18,961 nt of DNA, taken from positions 1-18,961 of the forward strand of contig JAPLMO010000296.1 of NCBI GenBank assembly GCA_026386995.1, in the 5' to 3' direction. The notes under the pieces are model-generated. The model was not told the DNA's origin and made no database searches. It saw nothing but the letters and a program-made list of their open reading frames with translations. A program made the translations under genes and the position numbers. The DNA is from Planctomycetota bacterium. GTDB lineage: Bacteria; Planctomycetota; Phycisphaerae; FEN-1346. Shown here one piece after another: positions 3,883 to 16,735 of this stretch (the first letter of the stretch is position 1; each line of letters begins with the position of its first letter).

Positions 3883-4236
3883 CTACTTCTGCGGCGTCGG
3901 CTCCGGCAATCCTTTCGCGCCGACGCGCTCCCCCTCGCGCCGGGCGATTTCGATAATGGCGCTGGAGTCATCCTCTATCCACTGCTTCTCGCCGCAGGCG
4001 ATGGGCTCGATGCGGCTGTCGGTTTGGGCGGCCACTTCCCAAAGGAGCATCGTGTCCTTCAGTTTTCTTGCCCGGTCGAACTTCGGCGAGACCACGATCA
4101 GGTCGATGTCGCTCCACTCATGCGTGCGGCCGGTCGCCTGGGAGCCGAAAATCACCACGAAGGGCACCTTCACGCCGCGCTTTGCCAAGGCACGGACGTA
4201 TCGCCGCACTGATGCTATAATTTGTCGGCTAACCAT
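3883..4236 (-). CDS. MNT-type nucleotidyltransferase (candidate antitoxin)
   Basis: This 117-aa protein is a minimal nucleotidyltransferase of the DNA polymerase beta superfamily. The diagnostic GSQATG (31-36) and SDIDL (42-46) motifs give the metal-binding Asp43 and Asp45; Glu77 in RIEPIA is a good candidate for the third acidic residue. In HEPN/MNT pairs this partner neutralises the HEPN RNase, in the best-studied case by adding AMP to it. Its ATG overlaps the 3' end of the HEPN gene by 22 nt, so the two are almost certainly translated together. All catalytic residues appear intact. Outside toxin-antitoxin pairs, similar proteins are annotated only as nucleotidyltransferase domain proteins, so the antitoxin role is an inference from the neighbour. 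Confidence 0.85.
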   Translation of the reverse strand: MVSRQIIASVRRYVRALAKRGVKVPFVVIFGSQATGRTHEWSDIDLIVVSPKFDRARKLKDTMLLWEVAAQTDSRIEPIACGEKQWIEDDSSAIIEIARREGERVGAKGLPEPTPQK

Positions 4237-4595
4237 GTGAATGCTTCTCCAGACCGCTTGAGGATGGCGCTGGCCTGCGCTGCGCTCGGCGTGGGCGGAA
4301 GAGTCTCCGGATAGCGGCCTGCCAGACAGAATGCGTTCAGGGTCGCAAGCGTCTTACGACGGTCCTGGCTCAATCGCAGCCCTGTAATCTCGACCAGAAT
4401 GAGCAAGTTGTGTATCCGCGGCGCGAGTTTCCGCGTCGCGGCACAGACGTGGGCCTTGAGAATCTTCTCCATCGCCAGGTGTGCGAAGAACAGGCCGTGG
4501 CGGCTGCGGCCGAGGCCAACCAGTTCCCGCGCCACGGCCCAGTCCTCCTCCGCCCCGTCTCGCCAGTAGGCGACTTGTTTTTCCATGTCGATCAT
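4215..4595 (-). CDS. HEPN-domain protein (candidate RNase toxin)
   Basis: This 126-aa, mostly helical protein carries HEPN family features: the conserved FAHLAMEKILKAH helix (37-49) followed by RKLAPRIHNLLIL (55-67). Arg55 and His62 fit the RX4-6H motif of metal-independent HEPN ribonucleases, although the more C-terminal arrangement seen in well-studied HepT toxins is not obvious. The gene is upstream of, and overlaps by 22 nt, a minimal nucleotidyltransferase, the standard HEPN/MNT order. The start may be ATG 4595 or the ATG three codons on (4586); neither has a strong ribosome binding site. It begins 81 bp after the htrA stop and may be cotranscribed with it. Toxicity is inferred from the family only. 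Confidence 0.82.
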   Translation of the reverse strand: MIDMEKQVAYWRDGAEEDWAVARELVGLGRSRHGLFFAHLAMEKILKAHVCAATRKLAPRIHNLLILVEITGLRLSQDRRKTLATLNAFCLAGRYPETLPPTPSAAQASAILKRSGEAFTWLADKL

Positions 4596-6549: not shown

Positions 6550-6993
6550 CTATCCGCAAGGCTCCTGACCCCGTTGCCGGAAACGAGTGGCAAGGAGTCG
6601 TTTCAGGCGGGCCATGCAGCGCGGCTTGGGCAGGCGCAGGTCGTGTTCCCAGATGCGCAGGATGCGCCAGCCAAGGCGTTTGAGTTCGCGGTTCACCCGG
6701 CGGTCGCGGGCGCTGTTGGCTTCGAGTTTCCGCCGCCAGAATGCACGGTTGTTGGCCGGCTTGGTGTAATGCATCGGGCAACCGTGCCAGAAACACCCGT
6801 CAACGAAGACGGCCAGGCGTGCGGCGGGGAAAACGAAGTCCGGCCGCCCGAACAACGGCCATCCGCGCCGCCATCCGGTGATGCCATTGGCCCGCAGCAG
6901 CCGGATCATCCGCAGTTCGGTTTCCTTGTTTCCCGCGCCGCGGATACGGGACATGCAGTAAGAGCGACGGTCCTTGGAGAGGACATCAGCCAC
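6550..6993 (-). CDS. vsr: Very short patch repair (Vsr) mismatch endonuclease
   Basis: This 147-aa endonuclease nicks next to T:G mismatches formed when 5-methylcytosine deaminates, starting repair to C:G. Matches to the family: the MSRIRG segment (14-19), GRPDFVFP (49-56) with catalytic Asp52, VDGCFWHGCPMH (64-75) with His70, the FWRRKLEANSARDRR segment (85-99), and WEHDL (115-119), where the E. coli protein has Cys in place of His117. Length matches the usual 140-150 aa. The start is taken as GTG 6993, giving MADVLSKDRRSYCMSRIRG; this overlaps the upstream gene by 8 nt, implying translational coupling. The open frame extends to 7068, but those extra residues do not resemble Vsr. It is the last gene of the methyltransferase operon, the expected partner of a C5 methylase. 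Confidence 0.93.
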   Translation of the reverse strand: MADVLSKDRRSYCMSRIRGAGNKETELRMIRLLRANGITGWRRGWPLFGRPDFVFPAARLAVFVDGCFWHGCPMHYTKPANNRAFWRRKLEANSARDRRVNRELKRLGWRILRIWEHDLRLPKPRCMARLKRLLATRFRQRGQEPCG

Positions 6994-7702
6994 GGGATTC
7001 CACCGATTCGCCGCCCAAGACGGACGCCGCCAGCGCGTCCAACTCGGCGTACAACTCCTTTGCGTCAAGAACCGAAGTATCCACTTTGTTGAAATGATGC
7101 CTTATGGCCTTGGCAAGCGTCCGAAACAGGTCTTGGTGGTTGCGGGCCTGCACAAGTGCCTGAAGGGGTGAACCGTGGCACTTGGCACGCTCCGCAAACC
7201 ACTGCACAAACCGCTCATCGTCAAAGCACTCCGAATCGCACAGTTCCACCCAACTTGTCCAGTCACCAAGAGCCTCGGCAGTGGGCCAGTCGAGCCTGCC
7301 CAAGAGCGCCATGTATCGGAAATAACTGTTCTTCGGGCGTTGCTGAGCCCTTACCGAAAGGCGGCCGTTGCGCGTGGGGTTTAGTGCGCCTGCGTGGTCA
7401 TACACGGCTCGCCACAGCCATATCCTGTCTCGCTCATCCCCAACGTCGATCTCGTTGAGGAAACCGAGCCTGTTTCCAACTTCCCACCAAAGGCGTAGCA
7501 CGCCGGCCTTGCCTTTGGTCGCCAGGAGGCCACTCCTACGCATTTCAGCCTCGATCTCCCGCATACGGCGTTCCAGGAGATCGTCATTGCGCTTGGCCAG
7601 CGCCTCGCCATCCCCGGCCAGCACGCCGCCCGCGGTCTTGTACGAAACTTCAAGCACGTCGGGGCGGTCATGGCTTTGGCTCTCACGTATAAGCACGGGC
7701 AT
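6986..7702 (-). CDS. Unrecognised 238-aa protein of the methyltransferase-ATPase-Vsr operon
   Basis: I do not recognise a family. The protein appears soluble and largely helical: no signal peptide or membrane segment, a charged helix around residues 35-65 (ERRMREIEAEMRR), then GVLRLWWEVGNRLGFL (72-87), a basic Arg/Gln-rich patch around 116-124, and a C-terminal helical region with HQDLFRTLAKAIRHHF. No PD-(D/E)XK, HNH or helicase motif is visible. The start is ATG 7702, two bases after the stop of the ATPase gene, with a G-rich ribosome binding site; the open frame reaches 7792, but that extension would lie inside the ATPase gene and looks artefactual. The 3' end overlaps vsr by 8 nt. Tight coupling on both sides argues for a dedicated partner of the GHKL ATPase or the methylase, possibly a DNA-recognition or nuclease subunit (inference). 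Confidence 0.8.
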   Translation of the reverse strand: MPVLIRESQSHDRPDVLEVSYKTAGGVLAGDGEALAKRNDDLLERRMREIEAEMRRSGLLATKGKAGVLRLWWEVGNRLGFLNEIDVGDERDRIWLWRAVYDHAGALNPTRNGRLSVRAQQRPKNSYFRYMALLGRLDWPTAEALGDWTSWVELCDSECFDDERFVQWFAERAKCHGSPLQALVQARNHQDLFRTLAKAIRHHFNKVDTSVLDAKELYAELDALAASVLGGESVESRG

Positions 7703-7704
7703 CG

Positions 7705-9720
7705 TCAGCCCCCGTAGTACGTGTTCAGCAGCCGTGCAACCTGTGCAGCACCTGCAACAAAGAGATCGCTTGGGCACAGATTTTCGGGACAAGAAATCAG
7801 TTTTGGGTTTTCAGAGGCCAAGTCCACTTCAATCAGACCCATACACAAACGCTCAAAGACATATTGTTCCACGCGGGTGCTGTCGTCCTTGATGCTCCGG
7901 TAAGCCTCATGCAGCGTATTATAGAGCAGAATGCGCCTGTCGGCCACCGAGCCGGGACGCACACTGTGCTGCAACTGATGCTCCGGGGGTTGAAGTTCGC
8001 GCGCCACGACGTCCTCGAAGAGTCCCGCCTCCGGCGGGTCCTCCTCGACCCAGAACCGCCTACCGGCCTCGTTGATGATCTTGCCCTTGGCAAACTCCTC
8101 TTTACCAACCTTCACACGCGCCATTGCAATAATGCGATTCTTGAGCACCCACTCGCCTTTTCCAAATTCACTCCGGATGATTCGCAATTCAAAAGGCTCG
8201 GCAAGAGTGACTTCCGTTTGTGCATCCAGATTCAGCGTCTTCTCAAGAAGCACCCTATCCTCGCCCGCCTGTTTATGCACAAGGTAGACTTTGACCTTGA
8301 TATGGATTTCGTGCGGCAAATCGTTTGTCACACATAAAGATTCTGCCTTCAACGACTCACCGTAGTTCACCCTGGCGCTTCCCGAACGAGGAAATACGAG
8401 TCCGCCATTGTAGGTGACACGGATCGGATGAGCGGTTCCCGAACCCCCGCCCCCACCCGTCGTTCCGATCCCCCGCAGTGTTATACCCAAGTTCTTGGCC
8501 AGTCTGTTGAGTTCCAGCATGGCTCGCTTGGCAGCATCGCGGTTTGTAGCATCGTCGGAAGGTACGCCGGGAGCGCCCAAACGCTTCTCGGCGAAGTCCT
8601 GCACCTCCTTCTCAATGACCTCCCGCACCTTCCGGCCAACTCCGCGGCTCAGGTTCACATAAAAATGTGTTGGGTCCTCGAGTTTCTTCATTTCCTCGTC
8701 GAGGTCTTCCTCGAACCGGCAGTAGCCGTGCAACCGCGACGAGATATCATCGGGGATATGGGGAACGCCGAGATTCATGACCCGCATGCCACCGCGCTGT
8801 ATGGCAATACCACGCACGTCATCCTGAACCGGACCGTCTTTAACGGCGGCAACGTGCAGCTTGGCAATGTGGTACGTGTCTCTCCCCACCTTCACAGGCA
8901 GATGCTCTCGCAAAAACACAACATGCTGAGCCGTGTCTTTTTCGGGCATGTCCATTTCTGGAGGAGCCGTAACAGCCAAATCGCCACTGCCATCCCCGGT
9001 ATCAACGGTGATCTGGGCCTTGCAGTTGCGCAGAATTTCCCACCAAGTTGTGGCAATCAGCCGTGCGAACTCCCCGCCTCTCACTACCTTCACAAGTTCC
9101 GCGCTGGGCTTGTCGATTATAACGCGCGTTCCATATTGTTCGAGGGCCGGTATGTCCTCGCAATAATCCCTCAACTGCCTGCGACCGGCATCGCCGTCGA
9201 AATCTACGACGGGGCTCTGCGTCCGCTCCAGCCACCTGGTGCCCAATCGGTAACTGCCATCACAACGCAACGAATCGTACAGAATGCGGTTCTCCTGACT
9301 GGCTGCGACAAAGATGAACTTGCCTTGGCCGCGCGCTCCTAATGAACCCTTTTCACCAGTCTTCGTGAATGCCAGGTTCTCGAATCGTCCCCAGCGTTCC
9401 TCGGTGGGCAGGTCATCACGGTCCAAATCTTGCTCGGTCAGGACGCGCCCCGTGAGCCCGTGCGTACCCCAATCCGTGAACATGAACCATCGGGGCTTTG
9501 CGCCGGTATCAAGATGGAAAGACATTCCCCAGCCCCGACCATGCTTGCGGTTGGTGCGAGCGTCCCATCCGTTCTGGATAGCGTCTTTTTGCACGCCTGC
9601 CGGAATCGATGCATTCCTACTCAGATACTGGTCCTTCACATTCTGAAGCTGTTGAGGCCAGTTAATGAGGGTGGGCCGCATGTCACCGGAAGACTTGAGG
9701 TTGGTCCAGAAGTCAGGCAT
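7705..9720 (-). CDS. GHKL-type ATPase, MORC/paraMORC-like, of a DNA modification operon
   Basis: This 671-aa protein has the ATP-binding signature of the gyrase/Hsp90/histidine kinase/MutL superfamily. Its N-box is DAIQNGWDA (46-54), with Asp46 where Glu is usual and Mg-binding Asn50. The G1 box is DWGTHGLTG (83-91) and the G2 glycine loop GSLGARGQGKF (125-135). A likely S5-type transducer follows, including GIAIQRGGMRV (304-314), and a Gly-rich linker at 420-428 leads to a C-terminal region (about 430-671) I cannot assign. Prokaryotic relatives of eukaryotic MORC ATPases are known from comparative genomics to sit in restriction-modification loci, where they may remodel DNA-protein complexes. 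It starts 27 bp after the methyltransferase stop with a GGGGGA ribosome binding site, and is followed after 2 nt by the unknown gene. Base composition looks less GC-rich than in neighbouring core genes. Confidence 0.85.
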   Translation of the reverse strand: MPDFWTNLKSSGDMRPTLINWPQQLQNVKDQYLSRNASIPAGVQKDAIQNGWDARTNRKHGRGWGMSFHLDTGAKPRWFMFTDWGTHGLTGRVLTEQDLDRDDLPTEERWGRFENLAFTKTGEKGSLGARGQGKFIFVAASQENRILYDSLRCDGSYRLGTRWLERTQSPVVDFDGDAGRRQLRDYCEDIPALEQYGTRVIIDKPSAELVKVVRGGEFARLIATTWWEILRNCKAQITVDTGDGSGDLAVTAPPEMDMPEKDTAQHVVFLREHLPVKVGRDTYHIAKLHVAAVKDGPVQDDVRGIAIQRGGMRVMNLGVPHIPDDISSRLHGYCRFEEDLDEEMKKLEDPTHFYVNLSRGVGRKVREVIEKEVQDFAEKRLGAPGVPSDDATNRDAAKRAMLELNRLAKNLGITLRGIGTTGGGGGSGTAHPIRVTYNGGLVFPRSGSARVNYGESLKAESLCVTNDLPHEIHIKVKVYLVHKQAGEDRVLLEKTLNLDAQTEVTLAEPFELRIIRSEFGKGEWVLKNRIIAMARVKVGKEEFAKGKIINEAGRRFWVEEDPPEAGLFEDVVARELQPPEHQLQHSVRPGSVADRRILLYNTLHEAYRSIKDDSTRVEQYVFERLCMGLIEVDLASENPKLISCPENLCPSDLFVAGAAQVARLLNTYYGG

Positions 9721-9747
9721 GTGTATCCCCCTGAAAAAGAGAACGCC

Positions 9748-11340
9748 TTAACCAGTGACTGTATCCGCTACAAGACCGAGACCGGCTTGTTGTGCCTCTA
9801 CGCAGTAGAAGTCCTGCTCCTTAACCTTGCCTGAATGATAGCGCCGCCAGGCGTTACGCAATACGGGAATCAGGGCGATGGGCCAGCCCGTGGCGGCGTC
9901 TGCAACGCGGAGCGATGCGCACAGGGAATCCGGCAAATCGCACGGAACCTGAGTTGCCTCGGTGACCGCCTCAGGGGAGCGTTGTGGAACGCTGTCGGGG
10001 TGAAGGCCTGGCATCAGGTAAAAGATCGCATACCACCCCGCCAGAAACATCTGTGGGTCAAGATGCGTAAGGGAAGAAGGATTGGCGCGCTCAAGCAGCA
10101 CCAACAAGCGCTCCGCCGCCTCTTCAGGGCCGGCCGGGACATAACGGCTGACGCGACCCTTGGAGAGATTAGGCGCTCCGGCGGCCTTCGCCAAGTAACG
10201 CTGCACGGCTTGACCGATGGCTTTGGCCACGAGAGGAGGCACGGCGTTACCGATGACGCGGTACTGATGGGTGCGCGCCACAGGGAACACAAACCAATCG
10301 GGAAATGTCTGGATACGAGCCGCTTCGCGGGGCGTCAGCGTTCGGCACTGGGTCGGGTGGATAAACATCAGGCCGTCTTTGGCCAGGTGGGCCACGATAG
10401 TGCTGCAAAGTCCCTTGCGCGACTGGCGGGTATACCTGTCCCGGAAGCTGCCCTTGTCGTAAGGAAACTCGAACTCCACGCCGTGCATCATGGCATGCTT
10501 GGAGTTTTCGCCCTCGCGCAGGCGTGCGAAGTCGCGCAGATCGCGCTCGCTGTGTGGCCGCGCCCAATGCGCCGACAGTTCCTTGGCCTTTGCCACCTTC
10601 AAGACGCCATGAAGGAACTGTTTTCCGTATACCTCCGTGTGTTTGCGCCGCAAGTCAAGATCGTACGAGGCATGGTCTTCACCTTCCCCGGCCTTGAGAG
10701 GCGGGAGGTCGCCGATCGCCTCGCCCAGCGTTACGGGATTGTCGACTCGCTTGGCCCTCAGCATCGCCGGGCGGAAAACAGGTAACTCGACCCGCGTGCC
10801 GATGATCAACTGGCGCACACGCTTCTGCGGCACGCCGAAATCAGCCGCATGCACGGTCTGGCCATAGACCCGGTACCCCATATCCCGGGCGTCGGATTGA
10901 ACGGAAGCGAAGTGGCGGCCCCCGTCGGCCGAACGGATGCCCTGCACGTTTTCCATGACGAAAACGGAGGGCCGGAAGAACGCCACATAGGCCAGAAACT
11001 GCTTGTACAGTTCGCGGCGCTCGTCGGGCACGATGCGCTGGCCGTGGTTGGCCCCGTCGCGGCGGCGGACATTGCTGAAGCCCTGGCAGGGCGGGCCGCC
11101 CACGACCACGTCCACCCGGTCCCGGCCGATCATGGCAGCCAAGGCTTCGGGCGGGAAGGCGGTAAGGTCCCGCTCAAGAATGACGGGAACCTCGGGGAAG
11201 TTGGCCCGGAACACAGAGATGGCGTCGTGCGCGAAGTCGATGCCCGCCAAGGTCTTCAAACCCGCCTGCTTCAGGCCCAGCGTGAACCCGCCGCAGCCGC
11301 AGAAGAGGTCGAGGCTGGTGAGTTGCCCTTGCATAACCAT
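9748..11340 (-). CDS. DNA (cytosine-5) methyltransferase with C-terminal extension
   Basis: The enzyme transfers methyl from S-adenosylmethionine to C5 of cytosine in a specific DNA site. All key motifs are present: I, DLFCGCGGFT (11-20); IV, GGPPCQGFSN (81-90) with catalytic Cys85; VI, MENVQG (129-134); VIII, QKRVRQLIIG (172-181); IX, RTLTPREAARIQTFPDWF (333-350); X, GNAVPP (364-369). Target recognition probably lies in 190-330. The site cannot be predicted by eye. Most such enzymes end soon after motif X; here about 140 more residues (390-530) follow with no family I recognise. The start may be ATG 11340 or ATG 11334, both with poor ribosome binding sites. It is the first gene of a four-gene operon with a GHKL ATPase, an unknown protein and Vsr. 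The catalytic machinery looks intact. Confidence 0.95.
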   Translation of the reverse strand: MVMQGQLTSLDLFCGCGGFTLGLKQAGLKTLAGIDFAHDAISVFRANFPEVPVILERDLTAFPPEALAAMIGRDRVDVVVGGPPCQGFSNVRRRDGANHGQRIVPDERRELYKQFLAYVAFFRPSVFVMENVQGIRSADGGRHFASVQSDARDMGYRVYGQTVHAADFGVPQKRVRQLIIGTRVELPVFRPAMLRAKRVDNPVTLGEAIGDLPPLKAGEGEDHASYDLDLRRKHTEVYGKQFLHGVLKVAKAKELSAHWARPHSERDLRDFARLREGENSKHAMMHGVEFEFPYDKGSFRDRYTRQSRKGLCSTIVAHLAKDGLMFIHPTQCRTLTPREAARIQTFPDWFVFPVARTHQYRVIGNAVPPLVAKAIGQAVQRYLAKAAGAPNLSKGRVSRYVPAGPEEAAERLLVLLERANPSSLTHLDPQMFLAGWYAIFYLMPGLHPDSVPQRSPEAVTEATQVPCDLPDSLCASLRVADAATGWPIALIPVLRNAWRRYHSGKVKEQDFYCVEAQQAGLGLVADTVTG

Positions 11341-11513: not shown

Positions 11514-11586
11514 AATCAGGGACAGCGCCAACGCCGCCCGGACCCCCGACCCGGCCCGCCGAAACCGCCTGGCGCTGTCCCTGATT
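11514..11586. repeat. 17-bp perfect inverted repeat pair with 39-nt spacer
   Basis: AATCAGGGACAGCGCCA at 11514-11530 is exactly complementary to 11570-11586. The 39-nt spacer is very C- and G-rich. In RNA this would make a long stable stem within the leader of the methyltransferase operon; as DNA it looks like one of the dispersed palindromic repeats. TCCCTGA also follows the palindrome at 11465-11481, so the two structures may be related copies. Confidence 0.65.
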
Positions 11587-15283: not shown

Positions 15284-16735
15284 TTATGCAGGATTCAGGG
15301 TGCAGAAAACGAGAGTCTGCCTGGCCATCCATCCGACCGGCACGAACCGGTCGACGCGCATGCCGGCCTCGGCGACCTCTTCGGCGATGTCGCGCCGCGT
15401 CTCGCCGCCGTAACGGCCTCGCAGGCGGTCCCTCAGGCCGCGCCAGGTGCGGCGGCTGTAGAATGAGAACAGTATCCATTTTCGGCTTGCCCGCGCCAAC
15501 TCCTTAAGGACTTCCACCCGCTCAGCGCGTCCGGGGATCCGGTGCAGAAGGCGTATGGCCATCACGAGTTCGAACGTGTCGTCCGCCACCGGCAGATGCC
15601 GCGCATCGGCCGCGATGAACGAGCAGGCGGCGCCGGCCTCGTGTGCGGCCTGCCGCGCCAGGCGGATCATCTCGGGGGCCACGTCGGCGCCTACAGTCTG
15701 CGCGGCCCGCGCCGCCAGGATCGGGAGTAACCGCCCCGTGCCGCAGGGCACGTCCAGCACGGGGCCGGTCAGCGTGAGGCCGCGTAGCCAGTCGCCTATG
15801 ATCCGCCGCTCGGCGGCGTCGACCTTGCGGCCGTGGCGCGACCGGGCGAAGCGGCTGTCGCGATAGTTGGCGGCGTCGGCCGCGGTGGCGTAGCGCCGGG
15901 CGAAGGCGTCGAGGGCATCCTGGTCAATCCGCCCCTTGGCGAAGTTTCGTGCCAGGAGGCCACGGGCGCCGGCCAGGGCCTGGGCAAAGATGTCGTCCAA
16001 CGGCTCGGTCACGAGGCCCAGGTTCTCCCGGCGGTCGATTTCGGCCGCGGCCTCCATCATCGACTTCACCCATCCTGGGTCGGCGTCTTTGAGGAGAATG
16101 AACGTGCCAAGTGTGGCCAGCATCTGCTTGAGCGCCCCGTGCACGCGGGCGTCGCGGAAGTTCGTGTGCCGCAGGTCCACCAGCGTTACGGCCGGGGAGT
16201 GGCCGCTGTCCTCGGTGACGAGAATATTCTCGGGCCGCACGTCACGGTGCAAGACGTTGTGGGACGCCAGGTCCACGAACAGCCGCGCTGTGGCATTCGC
16301 GAGCGTCCGGCGTTGCTCGGCGGTTGCCGCACCGGGCCGGAGGAGGTCGGCCAGGGGGCGGGCGTTCGGGACGTACTCCATCCACAGGTACGTCCGCCAG
16401 GCGCCCCCGGCGGCCTGCTCTCGCACCAGGGCCAGAGGGCGCGGCACGGGCAGGCCGAGTTCACGGAGGCGGATCGCGTTGATGAATTCGCCAAGCGCCC
16501 CGCGGGACCCCGACCGGAACAGGCCCCATAGCGATGAGGTTCGGTAAACCTTGACGAACACCCCGACGGGCACGCCAGGGTGCTCGGGCAGGAGGCCATA
16601 CGCGCGGCCGACGCTCTCGCGCCCGGTCGTGCCGGGAACGGTCCGGAGCCGCTCCGCGGGTTGGAACGCCTGCGCGAGGGCCGCGCGGAGCGGGCCCTCA
16701 AGATCGGGCGCAAATCGCCAGAGAAGTTTGGCCAA
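15284..16735 (-). CDS. WaaP/InaA-like lipopolysaccharide kinase fused to a class I methyltransferase
   Basis: This 483-aa protein has two enzymatic parts. Residues 1 to about 240 form a protein-kinase-like fold of the lipopolysaccharide (Kdo/WaaP) kinase type: VFVKVYR with Lys62, HNVLHRDVRPENILV (159-173) with catalytic Asp165 and Asn170, and TLVDLRH with metal-binding Asp187. Residues about 300-483 form an S-adenosylmethionine methyltransferase: GPVLDVPCGTGRLLP (324-338), VGADVAPEMI (348-357), FIAADARHLPVADDTFELV (373-391). No membrane segment is seen. The start is TTG 16735, supported by GGAGG five bases before it and a candidate promoter. Both domains keep their key residues, so a bifunctional enzyme modifying a glycolipid or glycan is likely, though the substrates are unknown. 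It is coupled to the PfkB-family gene downstream. Confidence 0.87.
   Translation of the reverse strand: MAKLLWRFAPDLEGPLRAALAQAFQPAERLRTVPGTTGRESVGRAYGLLPEHPGVPVGVFVKVYRTSSLWGLFRSGSRGALGEFINAIRLRELGLPVPRPLALVREQAAGGAWRTYLWMEYVPNARPLADLLRPGAATAEQRRTLANATARLFVDLASHNVLHRDVRPENILVTEDSGHSPAVTLVDLRHTNFRDARVHGALKQMLATLGTFILLKDADPGWVKSMMEAAAEIDRRENLGLVTEPLDDIFAQALAGARGLLARNFAKGRIDQDALDAFARRYATAADAANYRDSRFARSRHGRKVDAAERRIIGDWLRGLTLTGPVLDVPCGTGRLLPILAARAAQTVGADVAPEMIRLARQAAHEAGAACSFIAADARHLPVADDTFELVMAIRLLHRIPGRAERVEVLKELARASRKWILFSFYSRRTWRGLRDRLRGRYGGETRRDIAEEVAEAGMRVDRFVPVGWMARQTLVFCTLNPA

Follow-up and report, generated by a model that had tools for sequence, protein, structure and literature searches.

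The contig JAPLMO010000296.1 of a Planctomycetota bacterium (GCA_026386995.1), 18,961 nucleotides (nt) that we call the window, contains a four-gene operon built around a conserved pair of genes, which encode a MORC-like GHKL ATPase and a 238-amino-acid (aa) protein, here named UNK. The pair recurs in distant bacteria and archaea, its ATPase is related to PDC-M33A of a PADLOC candidate system and to MORC-type folds, and in part of the loci it is coupled with a C5 cytosine methylase, beside which a Vsr endonuclease and an unrelated HhH-type glycosylase replace each other. We regard it as evenly balanced whether the four genes form a self/non-self system based on methylation and of the paraMORC2/PDC-M33 kind, in which ATPase and UNK would act on unmarked DNA.

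Operon structure

All four genes are intact and lie on the minus strand in the order methylase, ATPase, UNK, Vsr, with 27 and 2 nt between the first three and an 8-nt overlap of UNK and Vsr. This confirms the coordinates and spacing given in the original prediction.

9748..11340, minus strand: C5 cytosine DNA methyltransferase, 530 aa (PF00145, TIGR00675)
7705..9720, minus strand: paraMORC2-like GHKL+S5 ATPase, 671 aa (alignments, fold matches, PDC-M33A profile match)
6986..7702, minus strand: UNK, 238-aa partner protein, predicted all-helical (relatives, model, adjacency, profile comparison)
6550..6993, minus strand: Vsr-type T:G mismatch nicking endonuclease, 147 aa, GTG start (PF03852, TIGR00632, PDB 1cw0)

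Scans with Pfam, PADLOC and NCBIfam recognised no cognate restriction endonuclease (REase) among the four genes and no superfamily 2 (SF2) helicase in the operon, in agreement with what had been predicted. Of the components of a type II restriction-modification (R-M) system, the four genes include the C5 methylase and no recognised REase. Run over the window proteins, these three collections and PHROGs gave nothing useful for the ATPase or UNK.

Conservation of the ATPase-UNK pair

A scan of one genome per species yielded 34 loci with a relative of the ATPase (loci are labelled L and recurrent gene families C below). They span Chloroflexi/Dehalococcoidia, Atribacteria, Ignavibacteriales, Omnitrophota, several candidate phyla, Gammaproteobacteria, Bacillota and archaea, the last including Thor-, Loki- and Bathyarchaeota. 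In 30 of the 34, the gene right after the ATPase is UNK, encoded on the same strand at a gap of -50 to +33 nt as calculated from mechanically assigned starts. Among the four loci without UNK, L012 has a short ATPase open reading frame (ORF) ending 120 nt from the locus end, L013 runs off its contig and L030 ends 327 nt past the ATPase; L021 (Lokiarchaeota) has none. The pair, or module, is the conserved unit of the operon. Recurrence of the gene order in distant genomes, on which the original prediction had staked its reading, thus holds for ATPase and UNK and does not extend to the full four-gene order.

Among 7993 candidates scored, 204 were relatives of the ATPase. The window protein has the N-terminal GHKL domain with ATP-binding motifs and the S5 domain C-terminal to it that characterise paraMORC2, the motifs being an N-box K45-D46-x-x-Q49-N50, D83-x-G85, G128-x-x-G131-x-G133-K134 and E348-x-x-x-H352. 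The last lies in the C-terminal part of S5, with E348 kept at >=90% and H352 invariant in 68 aligned sequences, and aligns with the same motif of PDC-M33A; an E-x-x-x-H motif was given for paraMORC2 in 2008 (PMC2292703). The predicted structure has a GHKL+S5 fold closest to SMCHD1 and MORC3/4, and matches to MORC, Hsp90 and MutL chains extend to about residue 380-390. The assignment to the MORC/paraMORC type made at the outset therefore stands, on fold as well as on the ExxxH motif. The C-terminal half comprises a beta-rich region at about 433-601 and a small end domain. A DUF4263 PD-(D/E)xK domain gave no Pfam match in the ATPase at E<=1, the C-terminal half not having been fold-searched alone, and sequence searches of the PDB with ATPase and UNK returned chance-level rows only.

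UNK has 33 relatives by sequence, and a deeper profile collected 58 proteins, none of which carries a precomputed Pfam domain. Its model (predicted local distance difference test, pLDDT, 89.3) starts with a short hairpin at the N-terminus and is helical thereafter, and no PDB match of weight to it was found. UNK is predicted to be all-helical and has no recognisable nuclease, which argues against the hidden nuclease that had been considered for it.

The module is rare. In Chloroflexota, 2 of 301 genomes have a strong match and 5 more a weak one (E 2e-6 to 1e-4, other proteins), and in Omnitrophota it occurs in 3 of 285 genomes, centre genomes being included in both counts. The window ATPase had no match in phage and plasmid records, two distant ATPase family members had none in plasmids, and of 107 pattern matches of the ATPase profile in viral contigs 0 were confirmed. 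The GC content of the operon genes (ATPase 0.561, UNK 0.60, methylase 0.627, Vsr 0.649) can be compared with 0.66-0.72 in seven flanking genes and 0.61-0.62 in a small gene pair at 3883-4595; that ATPase and UNK lie below the seven flanking genes suggests their horizontal gain.

Related clusters show how the module is inserted. In the Dehalococcoidales loci L026 and L031, a small protein (C3), the ATPase and UNK sit between C15 and C11, families that adjoin in L005. Reciprocally, in L005 (Dehalococcoidia) ATPase, UNK, methylase and glycosylase separate C16 from C17, two families that adjoin in the other two loci, and this inserted cassette leaves no room for an additional gene. Because the flanking families adjoin in the reciprocal loci, both gene sets behave as clean cassettes. 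The genomes of L026 and L031 have no C5 methylase that we found. The methylase-bearing and the methylase-free cassette occupy two nearby, distinct points of one conserved Dehalococcoidia gene cluster.

Further genes were observed next to the module. Members of a family of 344-392 aa (C7) lie directly upstream of the ATPase (L003:4906-5937, L009:7787-8956, L013:7773-8948, L025:2095-3159); two members scanned had no Pfam match. Large proteins with a Sigma70_r4 domain occupy the same position before a window-type ATPase (L012:6935-8977) and before a PDC-M33 ATPase (L046:3-2039), the latter protein matching MzaA weakly. In the genome of L033 (G011), contig C144 has a second UNK match, with one TGA inside it, beside a second C5 methylase.

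Relationship to PDC-M33

PDC-M33, whose first letters we take to mean 'phage defence candidate', is a PADLOC candidate of three genes, A (GHKL ATPase), B (about 290 aa) and C (DUF6339). Our ATPase profile aligned with PDC-M33A at E 2.3e-10 over 302 columns, including the E-x-P-x-H stretch, and the PADLOC model of PDC-M33A was matched by 11 of 68 ATPase family members at E<=0.01 (best E 9.9e-9). By these profile comparisons the ATPase is homologous to PDC-M33A, and the window pair is a remote cousin of PDC-M33.

UNK itself had no PADLOC or Pfam match, PDC-M33C/DUF6339 included. Profile comparison with six PDC-M33C sequences gave a probability of 4.2, and hhalign with 14 gave 10.0 from a 52-row UNK alignment and 1.1 from a 24-row alignment of close relatives. 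A subset of 43 UNK sequences (38 after filtering), picked after the first result, reached 39.5 (E 3e-4), compared with 0.0-0.9 in 12 control comparisons. On these alignments UNK is a probable remote relative of PDC-M33C/DUF6339. PDC-M33B had no match at E<=1 in the selected ORFs (>=60 aa) of the window and the 34 loci with a three-sequence model.

The two modules keep similar company. In Bacillota, PDC-M33A and DUF6339 were both found in the same 5 of 199 genomes, the centre genome G598 having been chosen because PDC-M33A is present there. Of 21 plasmid records with PDC-M33A we read six (L065-L070). Genes for dcm and Vsr lie near PDC-M33A in L068, L069 and L070; other neighbours are dcm with Sau3AI/MutH (L065), AlwI and AbiG (L066), N-6 methylase genes (L067), AlwI (L069), and a type II enzyme with Shedu (L070). 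Across the PDC-M33 cousins, the neighbouring REase is AlwI, Sau3AI/MutH, NgoFVII-type or another type II enzyme. C3 (about 76 aa; no Pfam match for two members scanned) lies directly upstream of the window-type ATPase in 12 of 34 loci, e.g. L004:8717-8944, and directly upstream of PDC-M33A in 4 of the 6 plasmid loci, e.g. L065:6737-6967 (E 6.7e-22 to 1.5e-27). A swap connects the two kinds most clearly: L032 (Paraliobacillus) has a window-type module and L069 (Planococcus plasmid) has PDC-M33 beside methylases that are 79% and AlwI-type REases that are 64% identical. UNK and PDC-M33C are each the last gene of their own ATPase set. Homologous ATPases, the shared C3, this swap and the last position make the two modules look like functional equivalents. 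Both modules occur together in two genomes (L015 with L047, L034 with L046).

The likeness to PDC-M33 therefore lies in a homologous GHKL+S5 ATPase, a DUF6339 gene standing last where UNK stands here, C3 upstream in part of the loci and neighbours of the same kinds (C5 methylase, Vsr). In contrast to PDC-M33, the window has no B gene, UNK is related to C remotely at best, the N-box has D for E, and the ATPase profile match is restricted to GHKL+S5, with the C-terminal half outside it.

The methylase and its probable mismatch repair partners

The methylase matches PF00145 (E 2.6e-63) and TIGR00675 above cut-off, and the Vsr protein matches PF03852 and TIGR00632 above cut-off and PDB 1cw0 at E 1.8e-18, with its active-site residues aligned. 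Both enzymes are intact by motif, as had been predicted. In Vsr, E26, D52, D65, H70 and D97 agree with the residue list in an excerpt of PMC12907096, with D for H64; the same excerpt reports D at this position in two Vsr proteins to which it ascribes tolerance of relatively degenerate motifs, and describes Vsr as nicking at T:G mismatches that arise from deaminated 5-methylcytosine.

The catalytic part of the methylase covers about residues 8-385 and is followed by a C-terminal extension (389-530; window 9748-10176). Residues 389-530 matched no other selected ORF of the 34 loci at E<=1, which places the extension outside the conserved part and speaks against it as the effector, a role once considered for it. 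Of the 34 loci, 14 have a C5 methylase in their fetched DNA, where match counts and genome sizes would predict 0.32. It is the sole C5 methylase found at E 1e-10 in 11 of these genomes (L001, L003-L006, L008-L010, L016, L025, L032; the two matches in L005 are pieces of one ORF). In a tree, the partner methylases belong to several clades.

Vsr lies near the methylase in 3 of 34 loci (L001, L016, L025) and in the window, and an HhH-GPD protein in 9 others (L002-L006, L008-L010, L033), so that an enzyme fitted to T:G mismatches, of one or the other unrelated kind, accompanies 12 of the 14 methylase loci and the window; neither cluster occurs in the fetched DNA of 22 loci. The glycosylase call is based on four of the nine members compared with the PDB. 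For L004 (E 4.4e-43), L009 (3.3e-39) and L002 (9.5e-44), the best match is 1kea, 'Possible G-T mismatches repair enzyme', which outranks MutY and endonuclease III; we take 1kea to be Mig.MthI. The ORF of L003 is short (183 aa), has no cysteine tail and matches MutY (1.4e-30) and 1kea (2.3e-30) equally well. The other five are 60-65% identical to L004. All nine have a tyrosine two residues past the last glycine of the hairpin motif, as in 1kea; this tyrosine alone is compatible with MutY, but the proteins are short (183-244 aa). The L004 protein also matches the PADLOC model 'Type II nicking endonuclease' (E 2.5e-46).

As controls we took 60 C5 methylases from Chloroflexota and Bacillota with flanks of 1.5 kilobases (kb). 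With this 1.5-kb limit on the distance from the methylase, Vsr or a glycosylase was counted in 11 of 15 module loci versus 16 of 60 controls (Fisher p 0.0017), and no control flank has ATPase, UNK or C3, one (L095) having a PDC-M33A match. The Fisher and Poisson figures (the latter printed as 0.0) serve as guides only, since the module loci are interrelated and were themselves the source of the glycosylase profile, and a single genome (G598) supplied 7 of 30 Bacillota control methylases. Because an unrelated HhH glycosylase replaces Vsr beside the methylase, Vsr is most likely the repair partner of the methylase and not an effector.

Proposed function and alternative explanations

C5 methylases mark sites, and GHKL+S5 proteins undergo ATP-dependent dimer closure and can hold DNA. 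We propose a role in defence with methylation as its gate and clamping as its act. The C5 methylase would mark a short site on the host genome, and Vsr would repair the T:G mismatches left when the methyl mark deaminates. The ATPase, a MORC-like, ATP-gated dimeric clamp, would divide the labour with UNK, the two together being the sensor or effector. ATPase and UNK would close on invading unmarked DNA and loop or compact it, most likely not cut it; trapping or compaction appears the likely act because the only nuclease recognised is a repair enzyme. DNA looping is argued for in a passage of PMC2292703, and C. elegans MORC-1 is reported in an excerpt of PMC8277788 to entrap and condense DNA. 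More boldly, and with considerable doubt, incoming DNA might be silenced or compacted by a MORC-like ATP-driven clamp and a helical partner that sense when the C5 methyl mark is missing. Such a system would extend over bacteria and archaea, Asgard lineages among them, as a prokaryotic counterpart of eukaryotic MORC silencing. If true, this would be restriction without a restriction enzyme.

Several observations weigh against the proposed self/non-self system. A C5 methylase is absent from the fetched DNA of 20 of 34 loci (some contigs are short) and, at E 1e-10, from 10 of 34 genomes, which rules out methylation as a universal gate. All 68 aligned members have an aspartate in place of the catalytic N-box glutamate, and ATP turnover may thus be slow or absent. 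The window ATPase matches no PADLOC model, PDC-M33A included; nor does UNK, and of the profile search against defence models suggested earlier the matches to PDC-M33A came from relatives (11 of 68). The connection of UNK to DUF6339 is weak, with 39.5 at best from a chosen subset and 1-10 with full alignments. When 14 PDC-M33/DUF6339 loci were scanned, C3 turned up in just 4, each of them on a plasmid, and it was not found in the window. The strict 1.5-kb rule scores the window negative, as ATPase and UNK separate methylase from Vsr, and likewise L003 (intervening genes), L032 and L034 (no repair enzyme there). We know of no phenotype for any relative of the module. Finally, an AlwI/FokI-like REase adjoins methylase and module in L003 and L032, and with the REases beside PDC-M33 cousins this means that the module may be only an accessory.

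The main rival builds on these REases. ATPase and UNK would be a helper or controller of an ordinary type II R-M system. In the window, that system would have lost its REase or have it elsewhere, and what remains would be a methylase on its own with Vsr and the module. We judge this unlikely. In its favour, besides L003 and L032, PDC-M33 cousins lie near AlwI, Sau3AI/MutH, NgoFVII-type or other type II enzymes. On the other side are sets of methylase, Vsr or glycosylase, ATPase and UNK free of a recognised REase in several phyla and one archaeon (L001, L004-L006, L008-L010, L016, L033 and the window), where the Pfam scan of neighbours covered 20 proteins and some contigs end nearby. When five nuclease-type proteins of plasmid loci and two FokI-like proteins were compared by phmmer with the ORFs of the 34 loci, matches appeared only in L003 and L032. 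The clean cassette of L005 has no REase, and L026 and L031 carry C3, ATPase and UNK in genomes where no C5 methylase was found. The repeated occurrence of such sets and the L005 cassette favour a module that suffices by itself. That the operon is a decayed known system, which had been raised as a possible refutation, gains from relatives that sometimes adjoin an REase (L003, L032, the PDC-M33 cousins) and loses in that the REase differs between loci and many have no recognised one.

The ATPase could instead serve very-short-patch repair of T:G mismatches as a MutL-like partner to Vsr or the HhH glycosylase, the operon being a modification-plus-repair unit and not defence. This is improbable: 22 of 34 loci have neither enzyme in the fetched DNA, 16 of the 60 control methylases have such a neighbour and none has ATPase, UNK or C3 within 1.5 kb (one of the 60, L095, having the PDC-M33A match), and one dedicated ATPase for both is unlikely because Vsr and glycosylase start different repair reactions. 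A solitary epigenetic or nucleoid-organising unit, in which methylation and a MORC-like ATPase shape the own chromosome or regulate host genes, also seems to us to have little in its favour, even though eukaryotic MORCs are described as compacting and silencing the DNA of their own host and the fitness of Caulobacter is affected by a solitary C5 methylase that has a Vsr-like protein with it (PMC12907096). Patchy, rare distribution in Chloroflexota and Omnitrophota, GC below most flanking genes, partner methylases from several clades and cousins in plasmid defence islands are instead marks of mobile conflict genes. Least probable is Vsr as the effector, loaded or switched by ATPase and UNK to nick unmethylated foreign DNA, as the original prediction had allowed. 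Vsr is the sole recognisable nuclease of the operon, with a PD-(D/E)xK fold and its active-site residues; yet it occurs in only 3 of 34 loci, an unrelated HhH glycosylase takes its place in 9 others, and neither is constant.

Comparison with other systems

Dcm-Vsr and M.MthTI-Mig.MthI pairs are not known to carry a GHKL ATPase or UNK. As here, each of these pairs couples a C5 methylase to a T:G repair enzyme of its own, Vsr as in the window or a glycosylase of the kind found in related loci. The study of Iyer, Abhiman and Aravind (2008; PMC2292703) linked paraMORC genes to R-M loci by gene order; compared with the paraMORC2 neighbourhoods described there, the operon is without a recognised SF2 helicase or REase. 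The sections consulted do not mention UNK or C3, and the likeness here lies in domains and motif. VcSduA, a paraMORC3 Shedu protein (excerpt of PMC12137116), is likewise a GHKL ATPase, in a tested anti-phage system, and is modelled as a clamp-like dimer; according to that excerpt it needs its own C-terminal DUF4263 nuclease, of which none was recognised in the window ATPase. In Response_reg_2/HEF_HK systems, a GHKL-type protein is genetically linked to C5 methylases and Vsr (PMC8011034, in part); PF19191 and PF19192 are not among the matches of the window proteins at E<=1. Core genes of DISARM or Druantia (helicase/DrmB, DruE-type) were not found in the operon, where the methylase matches DrmMII/DruM models and the other three genes do not.

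In the open-access literature that we searched, neither the ATPase-UNK pair nor PDC-M33 or DUF6339 was found described. The earlier view of a compact, under-described operon is supported. It is already known that paraMORC genes occur in R-M neighbourhoods (2008), and PADLOC lists PDC-M33 as a candidate; we found no description there of the pair, its archaeal spread, the Vsr/glycosylase exchange, the shared C3 or the module swap. Among paraMORC families, we found a tested function in print for one only, VcSduA, annotated paraMORC3 and with its own nuclease (PMC12137116, in part). The set is compact and has no recognisable nuclease besides the repair enzyme, and natural swaps isolate its parts (Vsr for glycosylase, the module for PDC-M33 beside related AlwI-type R-M genes, methylase-bearing against methylase-free cassettes), so that the role of prokaryotic MORC-like ATPases becomes directly testable with four genes.

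Other features of the window

The operon is flanked by what we take to be a trypsin-like protease gene on one side and recA on the other. Upstream of the methylase, positions 11514-11530 and 11570-11586 form a perfect 17-nt inverted repeat with a 39-nt spacer (core AGGGACAG), of which the window has no further copy at <=2 mismatches; it is possibly a relic of a mobile element or a terminator. On the minus strand, two small genes overlap at 3883-4236 and 4215-4595, labelled by eye as nucleotidyltransferase-like (GSQATGRTHEWSDIDL) and HEPN-type partner, and the pair looks toxin-antitoxin-like by eye. Its second gene (4215-4595) resembles L008:2154-2540, a gene in the vicinity of another module copy. 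A 483-aa ORF at 15284-16735, also on the minus strand, appears by eye to encode a kinase-like domain and, after it, an S-adenosylmethionine methyltransferase domain.

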